The notes under the pieces: generated by a model
What the model was told of the DNA's origin: nothing
What the model saw: only the letters and a program-made list of their open reading frames with translations
Database searches by the model: none
Made by a program: the position numbers and the translations under genes
In this document: piece by piece, positions 25,003-38,941 of the stretch
Numbering within the stretch: position 1 is the stretch's first letter
How the letters are laid out: every line of letters starts with the position of its first letter
Assembly (NCBI RefSeq): GCF_000980875.1
Contig: NZ_LAYO01000086.1
Location: 1-54,435 of the forward strand
Origin: Leucobacter sp. Ag1
GTDB taxonomy: Bacteria > Actinomycetota > Actinomycetes > Actinomycetales > Microbacteriaceae
Length of the DNA stretch: 54,435 bases
Direction: 5' to 3'

Positions 25003-25866
25003 GTGGAGTACTCGATCCAGGAGGTGGCGAAGGCCGCGGGCACGACCTCGCGCACCCTGCGCCACTACGGCGAGCTCGGCCTCGTGCCGCCCAGCCGGGT
25101 CGGTGCGAACGGCTATCGCTTCTACGACGACCGCGCGCTCGTGCGGTTGCAGCGGGTGCTGCTGCTGCGCGATCTGGGCCTCGGGTTGCCGCGCATCGGC
25201 GAGGTGCTCGCGGCTCAGGACGCGACGGTTCGGGATCCGGGCCGCGCGGCGGCGGATCCCGCGGCGAGCGCCGCGGGTGCCTCGCGCGCCGAGGCCGGGA
25301 TCCTGCGCGGGCACCTCGAGCTGCTGCGTCAGGAGCAGCGGCAGCTCGACGCCCGCATCGGTGCGGTCGAACGTACGATCGCGGAGCTGGATCGGCGCGG
25401 AAGCGGCGGCGCGGACCTCTCGGGAACGGAAGGGAACGGAGGAGACCTCATGTCTCGGAACATCTTCGACGGATTCGATCACACGCAGTACCGCGAGGAG
25501 GTCGAGGAACGCTGGGGCGCCGACGCGTACGCGAAGTCGGACGCCTGGTGGAACGGCCTCGGCGCCGATGGGCAGCAGGAATGGAAGGATCGCGTCGCGG
25601 CGCTGAACGCCGATTGGATCGCGGCCGCCGAGCGCGGCGAGGATCCCGCGGGGGAGGCGGCGCAGGCGCTCGCCGAACGGCACGTCGCCTGGCTGACGGG
25701 CATCGCGGGCACGCCCGCGGCGGCCCCGGGCGGCGATGTCGTCGGGTACGTGCTCGGCCTCGGTGAGATGTACGTCGCCGACGAGCGGTTCGCCGCGAAC
25801 TACGGCGGTGCCGCAGGAGCGACGTTCGTGCGCGACAGCCTGCGCGCGTGGGCCGAGCGCCGCTAG
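25003..25866 (+). CDS. MerR-family regulator with TipAS-like C-terminal domain
   Basis: A 287-residue regulator. The N-terminal winged helix is MerR-like (YSIQEVAKAAGTTSRTLRHYGELGLVPPSRVGANGYRFYDD, residues about 2-43). It is followed by the dimer helix LRGHLELLRQEQRQLDARIGAVERTI. The C-terminal part (from about residue 150) is a TipAS-like antibiotic-recognition domain (FDHTQYREEVEERWGADAYAKSDAWW, then YVADERFAANYGG). TipA proteins bind thiopeptide-like drugs covalently in a pocket and activate their own promoter. The GTG start has GGGAGGAA upstream. An internal AUG after GGAGA at 25450 could also yield the free TipAS domain, as in Streptomyces TipAS. Confidence 0.85.
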   Translation: MEYSIQEVAKAAGTTSRTLRHYGELGLVPPSRVGANGYRFYDDRALVRLQRVLLLRDLGLGLPRIGEVLAAQDATVRDPGRAAADPAASAAGASRAEAGILRGHLELLRQEQRQLDARIGAVERTIAELDRRGSGGADLSGTEGNGGDLMSRNIFDGFDHTQYREEVEERWGADAYAKSDAWWNGLGADGQQEWKDRVAALNADWIAAAERGEDPAGEAAQALAERHVAWLTGIAGTPAAAPGGDVVGYVLGLGEMYVADERFAANYGGAAGATFVRDSLRAWAERR

Positions 25867-25900: not shown

Positions 25901-26671
25901 CTAGGCCCGGCTCGCCTCGTTGTCGCGCACCTGCGCGATGCGCTCCTCCTGCTCGGGGGTGCGCGGCAGCGGCTGCTTGACCTGGTTCTCGCTCACGATC
26001 ACCACGTCGTGGTCGACGTGGTCGGCCATGGAGTGGACGGCGTCGATGAAGTCGCGGCGGCGGATGGCGTCGAGCACGCGGGCGTGATCGCGCTCCATCT
26101 CGGTCGCGGTGGCGACGTTCGCGAGGCGGCCGCGGTGCTCGGGGCTGCGGAGCTGCTCGTTGATGCCGGCGTAGAGCGCGGCGAGGAGCCGGTTCTTGGC
26201 GGCATCGAAGAGCAGTTGGTGGAATCGGCTGTCGAACGCGCTCGACTCGGCGCCGCGGGTGAACACCGGGCAGCGGTTGCAGCCGAGCTCGTCGGCCGCG
26301 GCCTGCTCGAGCGCCTCGAGGTCGTCGTCGCTGCGGTGCAGCGCAGCCTGCTGCGCGGCCTCGATCTCGAGCGCTCGGCGGTAGCTGAGGATCTCCTCGA
26401 GCGTGAAGTCGACGAGGAACTCGTTGAGGAGCGTGCTCGTGGGCGTCGAGGAGCGCACGAAGGTGCCGCGCCCTGGCAGGGTCTCGAGCATGCCGATGCT
26501 GGCGAGCGAGCGCACGGCCTCGCGCACGGTCGAGCGGCCGACGCCGATCTGCTCGGCGAGTTCGGGCTCGATCGGGATCCGCTCGCCGACGGGCCAGTCG
26601 CCCGTGGTGATCTTGCGACGCAGGTAGGCGAGCGTCGCGCGGGCCCGTTCGGATCCGGTCGTCACTGCCAT
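25901..26671 (-). CDS. GntR-family regulator, FadR/FCD subfamily
   Basis: A 256-residue regulator. The winged helix-turn-helix is at about residues 5-75 (ERARATLAYLRRKITTGDWPVGERIPIEPELAEQIGVGRSTVREAVRSLASIGMLETLPGRGTFV, in parts). The FCD ligand domain follows, with the metal-binding pattern of Asp and His residues (SAFDSRFHQLLFDAAKN and MADHVDHDVV). Members control use of carboxylic or sugar acids. The ATG is preceded by GGAGA, and a consensus minus-strand -10 TATACT lies at 26738-26743. No metabolic target is adjacent; the divergent gene encodes a PEBP protein. Confidence 0.85.
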   Translation of the reverse strand: MAVTTGSERARATLAYLRRKITTGDWPVGERIPIEPELAEQIGVGRSTVREAVRSLASIGMLETLPGRGTFVRSSTPTSTLLNEFLVDFTLEEILSYRRALEIEAAQQAALHRSDDDLEALEQAAADELGCNRCPVFTRGAESSAFDSRFHQLLFDAAKNRLLAALYAGINEQLRSPEHRGRLANVATATEMERDHARVLDAIRRRDFIDAVHSMADHVDHDVVIVSENQVKQPLPRTPEQEERIAQVRDNEASRA

Positions 26672-26841: not shown

Positions 26842-27399
26842 ATGACGCAGCCGACGCAGGGGCGAGGCCCCAACAATCCTTACGCCGCCGTGCGGGAGGT
26901 GCCCGAGTTCGTGCTCGCGAGCACCGAGATCGAGGCGGGCGAACCGCTGCCGGCCGAGATCTACGACACGGCATCCGGCGGCAGCAACCGTTCACCGCAG
27001 CTCAGCTGGTCCGGCTTCCCCACCGAGACCCGCAGCTTCGCGGTCACCTGCTTCGATCCCGACGCGCCGACCGGATCGGGCTTCTGGCACTGGGCCGTCG
27101 CGAACATCCCGGCGAGCGTCTCGGAGCTGCCGGCCGGGGCCGGGGGACTCGGCTCGCCGCTGCTGCCCGCGGGCGCGATCACGATGCCGAACGAGCTGCG
27201 CGAACCGGCGTTCGTGGGGGCGGGACCGCCCGAGGGCACCGGCGTGCACCACTACTGGTTCGTCGTGCACGCGCTGAGCGTCGAGCGCATCGACATCGAT
27301 CCGCAGGCGACGCCCGCGGTGCTCGGCTTCCTCATGCGGGACGCGGTGCTGGCGCGCGGCGTGCTCGTCGCGACGGGCGAGTACGGACAGGCCGACTGA
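26842..27399 (+). CDS. YbhB/YbcL-type PEBP (Raf kinase inhibitor-like) protein
   Basis: A 185-residue cytoplasmic protein of the bacterial phosphatidylethanolamine-binding family. It contains the ligand-pocket motifs SPQLSWSGFPTETRSFAVTCFDPDAPTGSGFWHWAVANIP (in parts, about residues 50-92) and GTGVHHYWFVVHAL near residue 137. The biochemical role of bacterial members is not established. The ATG has GAGGAGG upstream, and a TAGGCT -10 at 26786-26791 gives a leader of about 45 bases. It is divergent from a GntR regulator. Confidence 0.85.
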   Translation: MTQPTQGRGPNNPYAAVREVPEFVLASTEIEAGEPLPAEIYDTASGGSNRSPQLSWSGFPTETRSFAVTCFDPDAPTGSGFWHWAVANIPASVSELPAGAGGLGSPLLPAGAITMPNELREPAFVGAGPPEGTGVHHYWFVVHALSVERIDIDPQATPAVLGFLMRDAVLARGVLVATGEYGQAD

Positions 27400-27565
27400 C
27401 CCGTAGCGCACGCCCCGTTTCGCGGCTCGCCGCGCGGCGGATACCATGCTGAGCAAGTTGTGCGATCTCGTGCGGCTTCCCCTGCTCGAAGGCATCCGGG
27501 TCCCGTGCACACCGCGCAGCGGACCCGACCGGCGTCTCCGGGCCCTATTAAAGGACTCAACACCC

Positions 27566-28573
27566 ATGCGACAGACTTCGCTCCGCCGCCGTGCACTCGC
27601 CCTGGTCGGCATCGCCGCCGCCTCGGCCCTCGCACTGACCGGCTGCTCCGGAACCGCTTCGAACGACTCCGGCTCCGGCTCCGATTCGGCCGCCAAGAGC
27701 GTCAAGATCGGGATCAGCCAGCTCGTGCAGCACCCCGCGCTCGACGCCGCGACCAAGGGCTTCAAGAAGGCCCTCGAGGACTCGGGCATGAAGGTCACCT
27801 TCGACGAGCAGAACGCGCAGGGCGAGCAGTCGAACGCCGTCACCATCGCGCAGAAGTTCGCCTCGAGCGATGCCGACCTGTACCTCGCGGTCGCGACGCC
27901 CGCGGCGCAGGCGCTCGCGCAGGCCGTGACGAACAAGCCCGTGCTCTTCACCGCCGTCACCGACGCGGTCGCGGCGCAGCTCGTCAAGTCGAACGAGCAG
28001 CCCGGCGGCAACGTCACCGGCACGAGCGATGCGGCTCCCATCGACAAGCAGCTCGAGCTGCTGAAGCAGATCGTTCCCGGCGCCAAGACCGTCGGCATCG
28101 TCTACAGCTCGGCCGAAGCGAACTCCGAGGTGCAGGTGAAGGCCGCCGAGGAGGCCGGCAAGAAGCAGGGCCTCGCGTTCAAGACGAAGACCGTGACCAC
28201 CGCGAACGACATCGCGCAGGCGGCCGAGTCGCTCGGCGACGTCGACGCGATCTACGTGCCGACCGACAACACGGTCGTCTCCGGTCTGGCTGCGCTCGTG
28301 CAGGTCGCCGAGAAGAACAAGATCCCCGTGATCGGCGCCGAGGCCGGCACCGTCGAGAAGGGCGCGATCGCGACCCTCGGCATCGACTACGAGAAGCTCG
28401 GCTACCAGACCGGCGAGATGGCAGTGCAGATCCTCAAGGACGGCAAGAAGCCGGCCGATCTGCCGGTCGAGACCGCCAAAGACGTCAACTACGTGGTGAA
28501 CGAGGGCGCGGCGAAGCGCATGGGCGTCACCATCCCCGCCGACATCCTCGACAAGGCCGAGAAGGTCAAGTAG
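27566..28573 (+). CDS. ABC transporter substrate-binding lipoprotein (TrpX-like, PF04392 type)
   Basis: A 335-residue binding protein. The lipoprotein signal ends at Cys near residue 28 (ALALTGCSG) and is followed by a Ser/Gly linker. The periplasmic-binding fold is of the ABC_sub_bind type: VKIGISQLVQHPALDAATKGFKKALEDSG, then TAVTDAVAAQLV, GKTVGIVYSS-like and IDYEKLGYQTGEMAVQIL. Family members in Firmicutes bind tryptophan or other aromatic compounds; the ligand here is unknown. It is followed by a stable hairpin and then permease and ATPase genes. A -10-like TACCAT at 27442 suggests a leader of about 115 bases. Confidence 0.88.
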   Translation: MRQTSLRRRALALVGIAAASALALTGCSGTASNDSGSGSDSAAKSVKIGISQLVQHPALDAATKGFKKALEDSGMKVTFDEQNAQGEQSNAVTIAQKFASSDADLYLAVATPAAQALAQAVTNKPVLFTAVTDAVAAQLVKSNEQPGGNVTGTSDAAPIDKQLELLKQIVPGAKTVGIVYSSAEANSEVQVKAAEEAGKKQGLAFKTKTVTTANDIAQAAESLGDVDAIYVPTDNTVVSGLAALVQVAEKNKIPVIGAEAGTVEKGAIATLGIDYEKLGYQTGEMAVQILKDGKKPADLPVETAKDVNYVVNEGAAKRMGVTIPADILDKAEKVK

Positions 28574-28579
28574 TCGATC

Positions 28580-28613
28580 TCCGGTGCGCCGGGCATTCGC
28601 CCGGCGCACCGGA
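28580..28613 (+). terminator. Intercistronic hairpin after the binding-protein gene
   Basis: TCCGGTGCGCCGGGC (28580-28594) pairs perfectly with 28599-28613 across an ATTC loop. It lies seven bases after the stop at 28573 and has no T-tract. As in the peptide ABC operon, it would raise binding-protein mRNA relative to the membrane genes. Confidence 0.65.
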
Positions 28614-28633
28614 CCGAAGAACAGGAAAACTCC

Positions 28634-29632
28634 ATGATCGGCGCGATCGAACTGGGCCTCATCTACGGTGTGATGGCCCTCGGCGTGTACCTCACCTTCC
28701 GCGTGCTGAACTTCCCCGACCTCACGGTCGACGGCAGCTTCACCACGGGCGCTGCGACCGCCGCCGCGCTGATCACGCTCGGCCAGAGCCCCATCGTCGC
28801 CACGCTCGCCGCGGTCGCGGCGGGGCTCGCGGCCGGAGCGGTCACCGGCCTCCTGCACACCAAGGGCCGCATCGACGGCCTGCTCGCGGGCATCCTCACC
28901 ATGATTGCCCTCTGGTCGATCAACCTCAGGATCATGGGCACGACGAAGCCCGACAGCGCGGTCGCGGCGAACCTGCCGCTGCTGCGGGCCTCGACGGTGT
29001 TCGATCCGCTGCGCGAGAACATGCTGCTCGGCACCTGGGCATCGGTCGCGATCATCGCCGTCGGCGTCATCCTCGTGAAGCTCGTCGTCGACTGGTTCCT
29101 CTCGACCAACCTCGGGCTCGCGATCCGCGCCACGGGCGACAACGGCCCCATGATCCGCAGCTTCGGCGTCAGCACCGACCGCACCACGATCCTCACCCTC
29201 GCCCTGTCGAACGGCCTCGTCGCGCTGTGCGGCGCGCTCGTCGCGCAGTTCCAGGGCTTCGCCGACATCAGCATGGGCATCGGCCTGATCCTCGTCGGCC
29301 TCGCCTCGGTGATCGTCGGCCAGGCGATCCTCGGCCAGCGCTGGATCTGGCTCGCGAGCCTCGCTGTGGTGATCGGCGCGGTGGTCTACCGCCTCATCAT
29401 CTTCTTCGCGATGCAGGTCGGTCTCGATCCCAACGACATGAAGCTCGTCACCGCGGTGCTCGTGGTGCTCGCGCTACTGCTGCCGCGCTGGGGCTTCCTC
29501 AAGCGGGTGCCCTCGCTGCGGGGCCGCGGCGGCCGGGTCCCGCCGCGCGATCCGGCTCCGGATCCCGCTCCCGTCGCAACCGAGGCGGCCCCGACCGCCG
29601 CCGCGACCCCGACCGCTCCGAAGGAGGCCTGA
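28634..29632 (+). CDS. ABC transporter permease (TrpY-like)
   Basis: A 332-residue permease with about eight to nine hydrophobic helices. It starts MIGAIELGLIYGVMALGVYLTFRVLNFPDLTVDGSF, which is typical of the branched-chain/BMP-like permeases paired with PF04392 binding proteins. After about residue 280 there is a hydrophilic Pro/Ala/Thr tail (PPRDPAPDPAPVATEAAPTA), an added cytoplasmic extension. It is co-transcribed with the ATPase, whose GTG follows three bases after this stop. Confidence 0.88.
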   Translation: MIGAIELGLIYGVMALGVYLTFRVLNFPDLTVDGSFTTGAATAAALITLGQSPIVATLAAVAAGLAAGAVTGLLHTKGRIDGLLAGILTMIALWSINLRIMGTTKPDSAVAANLPLLRASTVFDPLRENMLLGTWASVAIIAVGVILVKLVVDWFLSTNLGLAIRATGDNGPMIRSFGVSTDRTTILTLALSNGLVALCGALVAQFQGFADISMGIGLILVGLASVIVGQAILGQRWIWLASLAVVIGAVVYRLIIFFAMQVGLDPNDMKLVTAVLVVLALLLPRWGFLKRVPSLRGRGGRVPPRDPAPDPAPVATEAAPTAAATPTAPKEA

Positions 29633-29635
29633 GCC

Positions 29636-30427
29636 GTGCTCGCCATCACCGACATCGAGAAGACCTTCTTCGCCGGGACCGTCAACGAGCGCCGGGCGCT
29701 CGCCGGCCTCAGCCTGCGGCTGGAGGAGGGCGACTTCGTCACCATCATCGGCTCCAACGGCGCCGGCAAATCCACGCTGCTCAACGCGATCTCGGGCCGC
29801 TACACGGTCGACTCCGGCAGCATCGAGATCGACGGGCGCCGGGTCAACCGCCTCAAGGAGTTCCAGCGCGCGAAGTACATCGGCCGCGTGTTCCAGGATC
29901 CGATGGCCGGCACTGCGCCGACCCTGACGATCGAGGAGAACCTGGCCCTCGCGCTGCGTCGCGGCACGGCGCGCGGCCTCGGCCCGAGCCGCACCCGTGC
30001 GCAGCGGGAGCGGTTCCGCGAGGAGCTGCGCACCCTCGAACTCGGCCTCGAGGATCGTCTCGGCGCCAAGGTGGGCCTGCTCTCGGGCGGTCAGCGCCAG
30101 GCGCTGTCGCTGCTCATGTCGGGCTTCACGCACCCCAGCATCCTGCTGCTCGACGAGCACACGGCGGCGCTCGATCCGCAGCGCGCCGCGCTCGTCACCG
30201 ACCTCACCGAGCGGATCGTCTCGCAGGGCGGCCTCACGACGCTCATGGTCACGCACAACATGGAGCAGGCGCTGCGCCTCGGCAACCGGCTCGTCATGAT
30301 GCACGAGGGTCGGATCGTGTTCGAGGCCGGCGAGGAGCAGAAGAAGGGTCTCACCGTGCCGGCGCTGCTCGCCGAGTTCGCGAAGATCAAGGGCGCCCAG
30401 CTCGACGACCGCGCGCTGCTCGCCTAG
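29636..30427 (+). CDS. ABC transporter ATPase (TrpZ-like)
   Basis: A 263-residue ATPase. It contains Walker A GSNGAGKST (about residues 39-47), the Q-loop in VFQDPMAGTAPTLTIEENL, signature LLSGGQRQALSLLMS, Walker B ILLLDEHTAALDP, and the switch histidine in MVTHNMEQAL. The Walker B Glu-His-Thr in place of Glu-Pro-Thr is common in this subfamily. The GTG start has AAGGAGG overlapping the permease end. It completes a three-gene importer of an unknown, possibly aromatic, solute. Confidence 0.9.
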   Translation: MLAITDIEKTFFAGTVNERRALAGLSLRLEEGDFVTIIGSNGAGKSTLLNAISGRYTVDSGSIEIDGRRVNRLKEFQRAKYIGRVFQDPMAGTAPTLTIEENLALALRRGTARGLGPSRTRAQRERFREELRTLELGLEDRLGAKVGLLSGGQRQALSLLMSGFTHPSILLLDEHTAALDPQRAALVTDLTERIVSQGGLTTLMVTHNMEQALRLGNRLVMMHEGRIVFEAGEEQKKGLTVPALLAEFAKIKGAQLDDRALLA

Positions 30428-30473
30428 CGCCCCGATCCAGCGCGCCTCCCGGGGCGCGCATAGGGGCCAGCCC

Positions 30474-30479
30474 TACAGT
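30474..30479 (+). promoter_or_regulatory. -10 element for the PutA-like gene (leaderless)
   Basis: TACAGT is followed by six bases and the ATG at 30486. Confidence 0.5.
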
Positions 30480-30485
30480 GGGCGT

Positions 30486-33400
30486 ATGGCAGAGGAACGC
30501 GGCGGCGTCGGCGGGTGGGAGAGCATCGCTCGGGCAGCTGAGGCCCGTGCGGCCGACTGGGCGCGCGCCCTGCAGCCGCACGCGGATCCCGAGCGCGGCG
30601 AACGCGCCCCCGAACTGCTCGCCGGCGTGCGCGCCGACGCCGGCGGACTCGACTTCACGCGCCGCCTGCTCGAGCACCTGCTCGGATCCGCGGACCCGTT
30701 CGCGGCCGCGCTCGGCCTGCGGGAGGTCGCCCACGAGCTGCCCGAATCCATGCCGGTGCGCGACCGCCTGGCGGTCCGGGCCGGCGGCATCGCCGCCCTC
30801 GGCCTGCCGTGGGCGGTACTGCCGCTCGCGCGGCGCTGGTTCCGGGATCGGGTCTCGTCGATCGCGTTCACGGCGAAGTTCCCGCAGGGGCCCGAGAAGC
30901 CGATCGACGCATCCGGGCTCGCGGATCGGCTGCTCGCGAAGATCGAACCGGGCACCTCGGCCCTGATCGCGCTCGGCGGCGAGCCCGTGCTCGGCGCCGA
31001 CCGGGTCGAGCTCGAGGTCGCCCGCCTCGTGGCACTCGCCGAGCAGGCCGGGATCGATCAGCTGCTGGTCGATCCGCTGCGGCTGCTGCCGGGCGGCACC
31101 GACTGGACCTTCGACGCCGACGTCACCCGTGCGGTGGACGCCCTGCGGCCCGTGCTCGAGGCCGCGCGCCAGGGCGGCACCGCGATCCTGCTCGACGCCG
31201 TCGGATTCCGAGGCGCCCGACTCGCCCCCGAGGTGCTGCTGCGCGCCGCCGGAGACGCCCGCCTCGACGGCGTGCGCATCGGCCTGGTCGTACCGGCCGA
31301 ACTGCCCGAGTCCCGCCGCGTCGTCGAGCGGATCGGCCGGTGGGCGGTGCAGCGGGCGAGCGACGGCGGAACGCCCACCGAGATCGTGCTCGCCGACACG
31401 GGCATGGCGGGCGCCGAGCGGATCGCGTCGATCCGCAGCGGTCTTCCGGTGCCGACGCTGGACGGGCGCACGGCGGTCGCCGCGCAGCTGCTGCGCCTCG
31501 CGCACCTCGCGCTCGGCTACGGGCCGTCCGTGCGCCTCGTCGTGCAGAGCGAGGAGCCCCGCCTCCTCGCCGCCGCGACCGTGCTCGCCGAACGGCACGG
31601 CACCGGAGAACTGCTCGGCCTGCAGCTGCGCGCCGGCGCGGATCCGTCCCTCGCCCGGGTGCTCGCCACGGGCGCGCACGAGATCCGGATCCGCCTCCCG
31701 CTCATCCCCTCGGGGGAGCCGTCGGGCCTCGCCGAGCCGCTGCTCGCGCTCGCCGCCCACGCGGCGGACCCCGACCGAGTCGACTTCGCGGAGGCCATCG
31801 CCGAGGCCGCCGAACCGTTCCCGGAATCGCACCGGACCCAGCTGCGCGCCCGGGAGTGGGATCCGAGCGAGCGCGACAGCGCCCTGTTCTACCGGCCCCC
31901 GGCCGACCCCGACCGTTTCGACACCGGCGGCCTCACCGCCGCCGTCCTCGGCCTCACCCGCGGATCCACCGGCGAGATCACTCTCGAGGCCGCGGGCCCC
32001 GCGCTGCGCATCCCCGTGATCTCGGAGTCCGGCCTCGCCGCCGAGCCCGCGACCGACGCGTCGCGCACCGACAATCGGGAATGGGTCCGCTCGCTCGTCT
32101 CGCTCGTCGCCGAACCCGGCTCCGAAGCCGCGTCGGCGGCTCCGGGCGACGCCTCGGATGCCCTGGGTGGATCGGGCGGATTCGACGCCGACGCCGTCGT
32201 CTCGGCCGCCTCCACCGCCGCCGGGATCTGGCAGGCGCCGCGCCACGGCGACCGCGCGACGCGGGTGCGCAGGCTCGCCCTGGGCACCGTCGCGGCCCGA
32301 GACCGGCTCATCGCCGCGCTCGCCGCCGAGAGCGGCGACCCGGTGGCGCTGCTGGACGCCGCCGTGGGCGACGCGGTCGACGCGGCCCGCTGGCTCGGGC
32401 GCCTCACGGAGGACCTCGGGTCCGTGCGCGGAGCCGAGTTCCATCCCGACCGGGTCGCGGTCGTGGTCTGCGATGCGGGCACGCCGTTCGCCGAACGTGC
32501 CGAAGCGATCCTCTCGGTGATCGCAGCGGGCAGCGCGGCGATCGTCGCGGCCCACCCCTCGGTGATCCGTTCCACGCGGGTCCTGCTCGAGGAATGGCAA
32601 GCGGCCGGCCTCCCCGCCGGGGTCGTGACGCTGATCGAGCCCGGAGCCGGAGCCGCATCCGAGAGCGAAGCCGACCCCGACGCACCGGACCACCTGGCCC
32701 TGGCCGCCGAGCTCGCGAGCGACCCGCGCGTCGATCGCGCCCTCGTGCTCGGGCGTCGGGAGACCGCCGCGGCGCTGCTGCGCCGGCGCCCCGACTTGCG
32801 GATCGAAGGCCGATTCGAGGCCCGCGCCTCCGTGCTCGTCACGGGCGGCGCCGACGTCGATACCGCGATCCCCGACGTGCTCGCCTCGGCGTTCGGCGCG
32901 CCCGCGGCGGATCCGCTCCGCGCCCGCCAGCTCGTGCTGCTCGGCGGCATCGCGCGATCCCGCCGGTTCCGCTCGCGCCTGGCGGACGCCGTCCGCACGC
33001 TCCGCGCCGGCCACACCGGGCGCGCGGGATCGAGCGACCCGCTCGACCTGCAGCTCGGGCCCCTCCCGGAGTCGCCCGGATCCGCGGGCCTGCGGGCCCT
33101 CACCGAGCTGGACCCCGGCGAGGAGTGGCTCGTCGAACCCGAGCGCCTCGACGACGCGGGGCTCCTCTGGCGGCCCGGCGTGCGCTGGGGCGTCAAGCGC
33201 TCGGCGCGATTCTGGCGCGATTCCATCGGCATGCCCGTGCTCGGCGTGACGCACGCGCGCAGCCTCGACGAGGCGATCGCGATCCAGAACGACGCCGGCA
33301 GCGGGGCCGTCGCCGCGATCCACTCGCTCGACGCCGACGAGATCCTGCCCTGGCTCGAACGGGTCGAGGCGGCGTCGCTGGCGATCTGCCGCCCGACCAC

Positions 33401-34244
33401 GGGCGCGCGCATCGAGCAGCGGCCCGTCGGCGGCTGGAACGACGCCGGGCTTGGCATCGGGTCCCTCGCGGGCGGCCCGAACCGGCTGCTCGCCCTCGGT
33501 TCGTGGAGCGTGCGAGAGGGGACGCAGAGCTCGACGCTGCACCTGCGCGGCCTCGATCCCGAGGTGCAGCTGCTCATCGAGGCGGCCCAGGAGGCGCTCG
33601 ACTACACCGCCTTCGACCGGGTGCGGCGGGCCGCGCTGAGCGACGCGCTGACCTGGCGCACCTCGCTCGGCATCGCGCGCGACACGGTCGGCCTCGGCAT
33701 CGAGCGCAACCTCGTACGGCACTGGCCCGTGGCCACGCAGCTCCGGCTCGCCGAGTCGGGGGAGCTCGCCGAACTCATCCGGGTGCTCGCCGCCGCGCTC
33801 ATCGTACGGGCGCCCATCACCGTCTCGACCGGGGTGGTGCTGCCCGCACCGGTGGTGTCGCTGCTCGAACGGCAGGGCATCGAGGTCTCGCTCGAACGGG
33901 ACGACGACTGGCTCGAGCGCATGTCGGTGCTCGCCGCGGTGGCCGATGCGTCGAGCGCCGCCGACGCCGGTGCGCGGGGGAGCGAGGGCGGTGCCGCGCT
34001 CGTCGGAGTGGATCCGAGCGCAGCGCGCCGGATCCGGCTCATCGGCGGCGACCGCGTGCGCGCGGCGGAGTGGCTCGGCCACGGCGGCCGCGTGGCGCTC
34101 TGGGCGGAACCCGTCACCATGGCGGGGCCGGTCGAGCTGCTCACGCTGCTGCGCGAGCAGTCCATCTCGATCGCGACCCACCGGCACGGGCTCGCAGCCC
34201 CCATCCTCGCGGTCGAGGACCGGGTGATCGAGCTCGGCCGATAG
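30486..34244 (+). CDS. PutA-like protein with both active sites lost (probable pseudoenzyme)
   Basis: The 1252-residue protein matches actinobacterial bifunctional PutA (proline dehydrogenase plus glutamate-semialdehyde dehydrogenase) over its length. The N-terminal part is like PutA (SSIAFTAKFPQGPEKPIDA; IALGGEPVLGADRVELEV). In the barrel (about 155-450) the residues expected for FAD and proline binding are replaced; no RRLEEN-type, VKGAN-type or GHN-type motif remains. In the aldehyde dehydrogenase part (about 570-1005) the PWNFP motif reads DAGTPF, the Lys of ILKPA is Ala-His, the catalytic Glu loop reads RFEARAS (about 777-782) and the GQ(K/R)CSA loop reads APAADPLRA (about 805-813), with no Cys. 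Flanking structural motifs are kept (SRRFRSRLADAVRTL; GGWNDAGLGIGSLAGGPNRL). The frame is open throughout. A regulatory or scaffold role is inferred; a normal putA may exist elsewhere. Confidence 0.8.
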   Translation: MAEERGGVGGWESIARAAEARAADWARALQPHADPERGERAPELLAGVRADAGGLDFTRRLLEHLLGSADPFAAALGLREVAHELPESMPVRDRLAVRAGGIAALGLPWAVLPLARRWFRDRVSSIAFTAKFPQGPEKPIDASGLADRLLAKIEPGTSALIALGGEPVLGADRVELEVARLVALAEQAGIDQLLVDPLRLLPGGTDWTFDADVTRAVDALRPVLEAARQGGTAILLDAVGFRGARLAPEVLLRAAGDARLDGVRIGLVVPAELPESRRVVERIGRWAVQRASDGGTPTEIVLADTGMAGAERIASIRSGLPVPTLDGRTAVAAQLLRLAHLALGYGPSVRLVVQSEEPRLLAAATVLAERHGTGELLGLQLRAGADPSLARVLATGAHEIRIRLPLIPSGEPSGLAEPLLALAAHAADPDRVDFAEAIAEAAEPFPESHRTQLRAREWDPSERDSALFYRPPADPDRFDTGGLTAAVLGLTRGSTGEITLEAAGPALRIPVISESGLAAEPATDASRTDNREWVRSLVSLVAEPGSEAASAAPGDASDALGGSGGFDADAVVSAASTAAGIWQAPRHGDRATRVRRLALGTVAARDRLIAALAAESGDPVALLDAAVGDAVDAARWLGRLTEDLGSVRGAEFHPDRVAVVVCDAGTPFAERAEAILSVIAAGSAAIVAAHPSVIRSTRVLLEEWQAAGLPAGVVTLIEPGAGAASESEADPDAPDHLALAAELASDPRVDRALVLGRRETAAALLRRRPDLRIEGRFEARASVLVTGGADVDTAIPDVLASAFGAPAADPLRARQLVLLGGIARSRRFRSRLADAVRTLRAGHTGRAGSSDPLDLQLGPLPESPGSAGLRALTELDPGEEWLVEPERLDDAGLLWRPGVRWGVKRSARFWRDSIGMPVLGVTHARSLDEAIAIQNDAGSGAVAAIHSLDADEILPWLERVEAASLAICRPTTGARIEQRPVGGWNDAGLGIGSLAGGPNRLLALGSWSVREGTQSSTLHLRGLDPEVQLLIEAAQEALDYTAFDRVRRAALSDALTWRTSLGIARDTVGLGIERNLVRHWPVATQLRLAESGELAELIRVLAAALIVRAPITVSTGVVLPAPVVSLLERQGIEVSLERDDDWLERMSVLAAVADASSAADAGARGSEGGAALVGVDPSAARRIRLIGGDRVRAAEWLGHGGRVALWAEPVTMAGPVELLTLLREQSISIATHRHGLAAPILAVEDRVIELGR

Positions 34245-37108: not shown

Positions 37109-37348
37109 ATGACCGACATCGACGACCTCGAGTTCGCGAACGCCGGCGAGACCGGCACGGATCCGGGCACGGATCCGGACACCGACCCGGACATCGATCC
37201 GGATCCGGACCCGAACGAGTCGGGCGATCCGCCCCAGACCGACCCGGTCGACCCCACACCCACTCCCGAAGATCCCCCCGGGCACTGCTTCGAGGAGATT
37301 CCCCCGATCGCCCAGATTCCCGAAGGAGGCCCCGGTGGCGAAGATTGA
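37109..37348 (+). CDS. Small acidic Asp-Pro repeat protein
   Basis: A 79-residue protein of extreme composition. It starts MTDIDDLEFANAGE, continues with imperfect Thr-Asp-Pro and Asp-Pro repeats (about residues 16-36), a Pro/Thr-rich stretch, and ends with GHCFEEIPPIAQIPEGGPGGED including a single Cys. No known family. A good ribosome site (AAAGGAGAA) precedes the ATG. The last 14 bases overlap the start of the first M23 gene, whose ribosome site lies inside this gene, so the two are co-translated. It is probably a disordered phage protein; a role with the lysin is inferred only from the coupling. Confidence 0.65.
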   Translation: MTDIDDLEFANAGETGTDPGTDPDTDPDIDPDPDPNESGDPPQTDPVDPTPTPEDPPGHCFEEIPPIAQIPEGGPGGED

Positions 37349-38219
37349 ATGGCCGCTGAAGAACTTCTTCATCACCGATGAGTTCGGTGCGGGCCGCTCC
37401 CATACCGGCATCGACCTCGCAGCCCCAACCGGCACCGGTATCTATGCCACGGACGACGGCGTGGTCTCTGCGAGCGGCAACGGCCGGAACAACTCGTGGA
37501 TGGGACCGATGGCCGGGCTCTACGTGCTCATCAGGCACGCGTGGGGGTATTCCGGCTACGCCCACATGAACGCGTTCGTGGTGTACGCCGGGCAGACCGT
37601 CAAGCGCGGCCAGCTCATCGGCTACGTCGGATCGACCGGCCTGGCGAGCGGTCCCCACTGCCACTTCGAGACGCTGCCCCTCTCGCCGAACTGGGCGAAC
37701 GGCATCTCCGGTCGAGTGGATCCTCGCACCCACACCCTCGTGCCCCAGGGCTCGACCGTCATCCCCCCGGTAACTCCCCCCAAGAAGAAGGAGATCAAAG
37801 TGATCGCATACCACCGTGAAGACAAGTACGCACGCAACGGAGGGCGCACCGTCGCTCCGGGTGCGCACTTCTACCTGCACACCACCACCCCGAACACCTG
37901 GAACGCCGAGAACGTCGCCGGTGGCGTCGGCGCCTACTCCTTCACCGGGCACCTGTACGCCCAGGGGCAGCCGGGTGACGTGGTGCGCATCGTGTACGTC
38001 ATCCAGAACCAGAAGACGACCCCGGCCCGGAGCTCGACCCACTACACCGAGTCCCGCGTCATCGACAAGAACGGCCTGGTGCGCGCGAACGTCGAGTTCA
38101 AGCGCGGTATCGCCGACGGCGATCAGGTCTTCCTGCGCTTCGAAGCGGACACGGCGAACACCGCCCCCGTGAAGGTGACCGCGCTCGACTCGGACGCCTA
38201 CCTGTTCAAGGTGGTCTAG
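37335..38219 (+). CDS. M23 peptidase (lysin-like) with beta-rich C-terminal domain and internal start
   Basis: The 294-residue product has a LytM/M23 zinc peptidase domain at residues about 5-135. The zinc motifs are SHTGIDLAAP (His and Asp ligands), GYAHM and GPHCHFE (the HxH). M23 enzymes cut peptidoglycan cross-bridges. A short Pro/Lys linker (PPVTPPKKKEIK) leads to a 139-residue beta-rich domain of unknown family. At the linker, AAGGAG (37788-37793) stands six bases before an in-frame GTG (37800, codon 156), which could start the C-terminal domain alone. The GTG at 37335 has AAGGAGG five bases upstream. No signal peptide, so a holin-type pore would be needed for release. Confidence 0.82.
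   Translation: MAKIEWPLKNFFITDEFGAGRSHTGIDLAAPTGTGIYATDDGVVSASGNGRNNSWMGPMAGLYVLIRHAWGYSGYAHMNAFVVYAGQTVKRGQLIGYVGSTGLASGPHCHFETLPLSPNWANGISGRVDPRTHTLVPQGSTVIPPVTPPKKKEIKVIAYHREDKYARNGGRTVAPGAHFYLHTTTPNTWNAENVAGGVGAYSFTGHLYAQGQPGDVVRIVYVIQNQKTTPARSSTHYTESRVIDKNGLVRANVEFKRGIADGDQVFLRFEADTANTAPVKVTALDSDAYLFKVV
37788..37802 (+). promoter_or_regulatory. Internal ribosome binding site and GTG start in the first M23 gene
   Basis: AAGGAG, a six-base spacer and GTG lie in frame at the junction of peptidase and C-terminal domain. The predicted short product has 139 residues. Confidence 0.5.
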
Positions 38220-38242: not shown

Positions 38243-38941
38243 ATGCTCTACTACCCGTTCCCACCGGCCGGTGCGATCGAGTGGCCCGGGACCCGGCCCG
38301 CCGGGTGGGCGCCGCACTGGGGGACCGACTGGCCGATGCCGGTCGGGACCCCGGTGCCCGCCACCAGCGACGGCACGATTGTGTACGTCGGCGATGACGG
38401 GCTCGGCGGGCGGACCATCGACCTGCTGCGCGACGACGGCCTGCTGCAGCGCTTCGGCCACCTGTCGGAGTACCGGGTCGATCTCGGGCAGCGGGTCGCC
38501 GCGGGCCGGATCATCGCCCTCTCGGGCAACACCGGCGCCTCGACCGGGCCGCACCTGCACTGGGAGCTCCGCCGGGACCGGCTCTGGTCGGCCGGCGCCT
38601 GGATCGATCCCCGTTCGCTCCACCCCTCGACATTCGGCCGTGCGACCCGTGCGACCCACCTCGTCCGCTCGGCTCGACCGGCCGTCCCCGCACTCAAGGA
38701 GGTGCTCCCCATGGCCAATCCCATCGGCATGTTCATCGGCACGACCCGCCCCCGGACCGCGACGGAGGAGCGGTGCGTCATCTACGACCTCGACTCGGGG
38801 TTCTACACGACCTTCTCGGGGGTCCCCCAGTCCTACATCAACGACATGGCTCGTGCGCACGGAACCCCGGCCTTCGGACGGATGACGGTCAAGCACTGGA
38901 ACCAGGTCAAGGCGCAGCTGGACGAGGTGAGGCGCTCATGA
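38243..38941 (+). CDS. Second M23 peptidase with small C-terminal domain and internal start
   Basis: A 232-residue product. The M23 domain is at residues about 10-130, with zinc motifs HWGTDWPMPVG, FGHLSE and GPHLHWEL. After a basic linker comes a 77-residue C-terminal part (MANPIGMFIGTTRP...YDLDSGFYTTFSGVP). AAGGAGG (38696-38702) lies eight bases before an in-frame ATG at 38711 (codon 157), giving a much better ribosome site than the gene's own start at 38243, where none is clear. The C-terminal part may thus be mainly made as a separate protein. It resembles the first M23 gene only in domain type. The next gene starts by an ATGA overlap. Confidence 0.78.
   Translation: MLYYPFPPAGAIEWPGTRPAGWAPHWGTDWPMPVGTPVPATSDGTIVYVGDDGLGGRTIDLLRDDGLLQRFGHLSEYRVDLGQRVAAGRIIALSGNTGASTGPHLHWELRRDRLWSAGAWIDPRSLHPSTFGRATRATHLVRSARPAVPALKEVLPMANPIGMFIGTTRPRTATEERCVIYDLDSGFYTTFSGVPQSYINDMARAHGTPAFGRMTVKHWNQVKAQLDEVRRS
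38696..38713 (+). promoter_or_regulatory. Internal ribosome binding site and ATG start in the second M23 gene
   Basis: A full AAGGAGG and an ATG eight bases later are in frame with the peptidase and would yield a 77-residue protein. The site is stronger than any at the upstream start. Confidence 0.65.

Follow-up and report, generated by a model that had tools for sequence, protein, structure and literature searches.

The window analyzed here is the whole 54,435-nucleotide stretch of Leucobacter sp. Ag1 (Microbacteriaceae; contig NZ_LAYO01000086.1). On its plus strand, positions 30486-34244 encode a PutA-like protein of 1252 amino acids (aa), P0001, that appears to have lost both of its active sites (handles below designate genomes, G; loci, L; and genera, g). 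The original prediction described an uninterrupted PutA-like frame, and indeed the translation is free of stops. A Pfam scan matched P0001 to Aldedh (1.5e-30), the Pro_dh match (0.016) being below its cut-off, and the best solved relative is the PutA of Corynebacterium freiburgense (5UX5, 1.4e-89). In the predicted model P0001 has a full-length PutA architecture, with a proline dehydrogenase (PRODH) barrel, an aldehyde dehydrogenase (ALDH) domain and a C-terminal domain in one chain, an arrangement that PMC5293562 gives for PutA types B and C. P0001 resembles 5UX5 in this architecture and in predicted fold, with 24-28% identity in structural alignments. Most of the structural matches span model residues 481-966 and few cover most of the chain, among them the PutAs 5UX5, 4Q72 and 6BSN. 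The RHH DNA-binding domain of the type C PutA regulator was found neither with Pfam at E values up to 1 nor among the 25 of 30 NCBIfam matches listed. The PRODH-like half lies at 30615-31805 (about residues 44-440) and is followed by an interdomain linker at 31806-32120 (about residues 441-545) with the signature TGGLTAAVLGL (31923-31955, residues 480-490), an ALDH-like half at 32163-33509 (about residues 560-1008) and a C-terminal domain at 33510-34241 (about residues 1009-1252) with the signature STLHLRGL (33531-33554, residues 1016-1023), all on the plus strand. A 1266-aa open frame without a Pfam match (30387-34187, minus strand) spans the pseudo-PutA gene. It was rejected as a real gene because homology and a low ratio of nonsynonymous to synonymous substitution (dN/dS) belong to the plus frame, and it is most likely a high-GC shadow frame.

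The active-site columns of 30 orthologues, the dead copies, were compared with those of 21 paralogues from the same genus, which we term intact from their motifs. The ALDH cysteine column holds C in all 21 paralogues, whereas the orthologues have P (13), L (10), A (6) or S (1), so that the catalytic cysteine is found in 0/30; in P0001 the residue is P810, within the former cysteine loop FGAPAADPLRA (32892-32924, plus strand, residues 803-813). At the catalytic glutamate column E (21/21) is replaced by R (18), H (10) or Q (2), with R776 in P0001 (codon 32811-32813, plus strand), and at the NAD-site lysine column K (21/21) gives way to A (18), V (6), S (4), T (1) and others, with A688 in P0001. 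In the other half, the PRODH lysine column, which we take to be catalytic, is K in every paralogue and D in every orthologue (D196 in P0001). The PWNFP, GHN and VKGAN motifs, the last presumably the FAD motif, are all replaced in the orthologues. Unlike P0001, in which every tested catalytic motif is replaced, 5UX5 has the cysteine loop HAGQKCSA. A study of SmPutA reports that Cys844 attacks the substrate, that C844S disables the second reaction and that Glu810 assists acyl-enzyme hydrolysis (PMC12398946). The original prediction, which had listed the ALDH cysteine loop, glutamate, PWNFP and NAD-site lysine as replaced and the PRODH half as devoid of its motifs, thus agrees with the column comparison. 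It had also named an alternative catalytic cysteine as an observation that would speak against it. No column carries cysteine in as many as half of the 30 orthologues and three of these proteins contain no cysteine at all, which excludes a relocated conserved nucleophilic cysteine for that set. On the same grounds we rejected cysteine-based redox sensing, one of the roles first proposed.

An orthologue is present in all 54 genomes of the genus that were searched. The frame is full in 47, cut by contig ends in two (G035 and G045) and interrupted in five. Among the 30 orthologues fetched, 28 are covered by a single frame, L020 (G008) breaks at about residue 1200 and L032 (G016) at about residue 90; the remaining 24 comprise 19 full frames, the two cut ones and three interrupted ones (G012, G020 and G031). 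NG86 dN/dS ranged from 0.038 to 0.186 in seven chosen close orthologue pairs, as compared with 0.058 to 0.174 in five paralogue pairs, one of which is near saturation in dS. A promoter motif is conserved as well. A TACAGT -10 element at 30474-30479 (plus strand), 6 nucleotides before the ATG, predicts leaderless transcription, and a TANNNT box 6-7 nucleotides before the start was found in 27 of the 28 orthologues with at least 20 nucleotides of upstream DNA (two of the 30 were left out for having too little; shuffle expectation 1.0) and in 0/21 paralogues; 16 of the latter carry a Shine-Dalgarno-like sequence. The lone miss is the frame-broken L032, whose other frame shows TACAGT 7 nucleotides before an ATG. 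Interrupted frames are what a pseudogene in slow decay would show, and two of the five are broken only near one end. However, 47/54 copies are open over about 3.7 kb with dN/dS far below 1, the break in G031 falls at an NN gap, G012 has its other putA broken too and the promoter motif is conserved, which makes slow decay very improbable. The leaderless promoter motif and the selection on a non-catalytic role that had been proposed from the single sequence are thereby supported, and the stops and relaxed selection named as its refutation are not the general pattern. With a homologous predicted fold, lost catalytic residues and a gene under selection, P0001 is, as far as sequence and model can tell, a pseudoenzyme.

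Constraint is unevenly distributed along the dead copy. In the 12 genomes that hold both a dead and an intact copy, the dead copies had a mean pairwise identity of 0.465 in the PRODH half, 0.546 in the ALDH half, 0.625 in the linker and 0.653 in the C-terminal domain; the corresponding values for the intact copies were 0.855, 0.832, 0.636 and 0.645. Over windows of 40 residues, the dead copy shows higher conservation than the intact one at residues 441-520, 1001-1040 and 1081-1200 and lower conservation elsewhere, so that the linker, equal to the paralogues overall, is higher in 441-520 and lower in 521-560. Constraint has thus dropped in both catalytic halves and hardly at all in the linker and C-terminal domain.

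A second, normal putA had been suggested as something to look for, and 45/54 genomes of the genus have a PutA of another type (the cysteine was checked in 21, and some of the 45 copies are cut short or interrupted). In the other nine, the matches listed, best first, for an intact-PutA query comprised nothing but the dead copy plus aldehyde dehydrogenases at about 30%. A Pro_dh family search of these nine genomes found nothing in five and only the dead gene itself in four; the same search gave strong matches in three genomes with an intact PutA. Completeness is 90% or more, with low contamination, in six of the nine. A 32-leaf tree includes six of the nine, in six separate places, or five without the contaminated draft G034. 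The dead copy therefore does not seem to need an intact PutA, as judged from gene content, and since it is kept even in strains without a detected working version it probably serves a non-catalytic job. A role exercised only through an intact PutA does not fit these nine genomes. This bears on the idea that the dead copy is a partner subunit, activating or regulating the intact PutA within mixed oligomers, as prozymes do. Both types occur together in 45/54 genomes, and activation by a dead paralogue is known elsewhere: two reports describe trypanosome prozymes of AdoMetDC and deoxyhypusine synthase as dead paralogues maintained alongside an active one (PMC5201418, PMC3663545; activation, PMC5201418). 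Prozymes, however, act on an active partner, whereas the Leucobacter dead copy stays in nine genomes, scattered on the tree, in which no intact partner was found. This speaks against a prozyme-type mechanism as the general role, and we consider it improbable. Separately, a protein with a 64-bit Pro_dh match occurs alongside the usual intact PutA in the source genome (L234, G000:C6:81975-82646) and in G032 (L233), in frames of 389 and 409 aa.

The history of the loss was followed in an IQ-TREE phylogeny of 55 proteins. The genera are named from matches to Leucobacter sp. OLIS6 (95%), to many other Leucobacter and to Canibacter. The dead clade, comprising Leucobacter, Canibacter and genera g47 and g51, is nested within Microbacteriaceae PutAs. 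It branches after L182 (cysteine kept; glutamate and PRODH lysine changed) and L059 (cysteine and glutamate kept; PRODH lysine changed) and adjoins L061 (cysteine to proline, VKGAN kept) with an ultrafast bootstrap of 100. A second lineage, in genus g17, runs from L072 (cysteine to arginine, VKGAN kept) to L125 and L127, in which cysteine, NAD-site lysine and VKGAN are lost. Intermediates thus exist, and by their motifs the g17 lineage lost both sites separately. The HLRGL motif is present in 37/38 dead-clade proteins (the exception being a fragment), 2/2 of the second lineage and 4/4 intermediates, but in none of 27 intact copies belonging to the type that Leucobacter, Canibacter, g47 and g51 possess, none of five intact second copies from g17, g19 and g24 and none of four other-family PutAs. 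Among intact family PutAs it occurs in 39 of the 42 chosen for their resemblance to P0001 or to its linker (43 before one other-family fragment was dropped) and in 13 of 40 lower-ranking ones, all of which keep the cysteine; an LTxxVLGL-like linker motif occurs in 31/42 and 9/40, respectively. HLRGL accordingly marks one Microbacteriaceae PutA type out of two or more, which on this motif distribution is the source of both dead lineages, the working partners being of other types. Intact PutAs of the HLRGL type share the linker and C-terminal signatures with P0001 and are its nearest intact sequences on the tree; unlike the dead copies, they keep the cysteine, glutamate and lysine columns. We rejected the view that the linker and STLHLRGL arose in the dead protein, because both occur in intact family PutAs, and, given the 13/40, the view that HLRGL marks the native PutA of the entire family. 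Mean identity of the two types to other-family PutAs is about equal, favoring neither as the native one. In a search for the linker marker beyond the family, 1/296 genomes of the phylum matched, namely the source genome itself. Two further family loci were noted. L251 (G087:C3:330700-334800) keeps the cysteine (RAGQSCT) and has the PRODH lysine changed to P and the FAD motif LVTGADR, possibly a third, partial loss outside the HLRGL type. In L199 (G157:C1:570000-573500) a putA is split into several frames, and the same Microbacteriaceae genome has a full one.

The losses and their grading, frames that are mostly open and under selection, a conserved promoter motif and retention where no intact PutA was detected, all read from sequence, together with the predicted retention of the fold, suggest that P0001 is an HLRGL-type PutA that lost both active sites and is maintained, still folded, for a non-catalytic function. 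We put the probability of this reading at roughly 0.57. The second PutA could have taken on proline oxidation, upon which the HLRGL-type copy would have shed catalysis, partly at first and then fully, while retaining the linker (TGGLTAAVLGL) and the C-terminal domain (STLHLRGL). The retained function would then sit on these two parts and work by partner binding, as a scaffold or in assembly, and not by chemistry. A broader version is possible but falls somewhat short of even odds: the HLRGL type may carry such a second function in the linker and C-terminal domain and twice have become its pure carrier where another PutA type took over proline oxidation, after which the working enzyme could be lost and the dead one kept. 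A comparable case may be the human pseudo-aldehyde-dehydrogenase ALDH16A1, which PMC10650815 describes as devoid of the ALDH superfamily's catalytic residues and thought to work via protein interactions; unlike P0001 it is not known as a PutA.

Several observations weigh against a non-catalytic function seated in the linker and C-terminal domain. The absence of an intact PutA is best supported in G001, G015 and G024, each a genome in a single contig, and weak in G041 and G045 (72-76% complete). The dead-clade stem is long (0.91), the root of the tree is arbitrary (placed on L151) and HLRGL is inherited, so that its 39/42 versus 13/40 distribution reflects descent as well as possible function. 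Five of the 54 copies are frame-broken, that of G020 by a single frameshift in a single-contig genome. Identity lies below that of the paralogues in residues 521-600 and 1201-1240, and the linker is predicted at low confidence, although the model does show the PutA fold without its sites that had been anticipated. Finally, the catalytic halves remain under purifying selection and have gained residues near-invariant in the genus, D196, D212 and W910 among them. Altogether 19 PRODH-half and 17 ALDH-half positions that are near-invariant in the paralogues are near-invariant with a different residue in the dead copies (for example K196D, A212D, T619P, H910W and T912D). This allows for a repurposed pocket, in which the altered barrel or Rossmann site would bind a small molecule or carry out another reaction, making P0001 a ligand sensor or a new enzyme. 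Yet it is in these very halves that constraint fell most; there is no conserved cysteine, no lysine is kept in 28/30, the FAD and NAD motifs are gone, and D196 differs in g51, as does E774 in g47, g51 and g6. We therefore regard a repurposed pocket as rather unlikely, though less so than a prozyme-like partner.

No dead PutA was found in the literature searched, outside which most subscription journals lie, nor was anything found there for 'proline dehydrogenase' with Leucobacter or Microbacteriaceae. New here are the retention of a dead copy in nine genomes without a detected PutA of another type or other proline dehydrogenase, the constraint pattern, the HLRGL split and the intermediates with a second loss. 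Pseudoenzymes as such are already known; a large two-enzyme protein with both sites apparently lost, present in 54/54 genomes searched in one genus, with intermediates and a second case, is a rare stepwise record of an enzyme changing role. In the strains without a detected intact PutA, the hidden function of a metabolic enzyme is directly testable by deletion. The case is also a warning for annotation, as naming by similarity would suggest a proline or 1-pyrroline-5-carboxylate dehydrogenase where no intact proline dehydrogenase is found.

Upstream of the pseudo-PutA gene lie a GntR/FCD regulator gene (25901-26671, minus strand), a PEBP (YbhB/YbcL-like) gene (26842-27399, plus strand) and, adjoining many but not all orthologues, an ABC transporter trio of TrpX-like binding protein, permease and ATPase (27446-30427, plus strand). 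A 350-aa plus-strand frame at 25736 was discarded as the wrong frame, the true gene being the minus-strand GntR/FCD gene. The GntR/FCD, PEBP and TrpX-like genes recur upstream in Leucobacter and in part in g47, g51 and Canibacter; the trio is duplicated or not found in some Leucobacter loci, and downstream, on the opposite strand, there is often a GNAT gene. We dropped the neighborhood as a functional clue because the recurrent genes name no pathway and do not point to proline metabolism. A search of 42 related loci, Leucobacter loci included, gave no match to a siderophore-interacting FAD-binding protein gene (Pfam, L207 copy) that lies beside the intermediate PutAs of three genera (L205, L206 and L207, as a divergent neighbor), near the g47 dead copy (L202, 3158-4057) and near an intact PutA of g57 (L211, 3209-4072). 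Further along the window are two adjacent M23 peptidase genes (37335-38219 and 38243-38941, plus strand).
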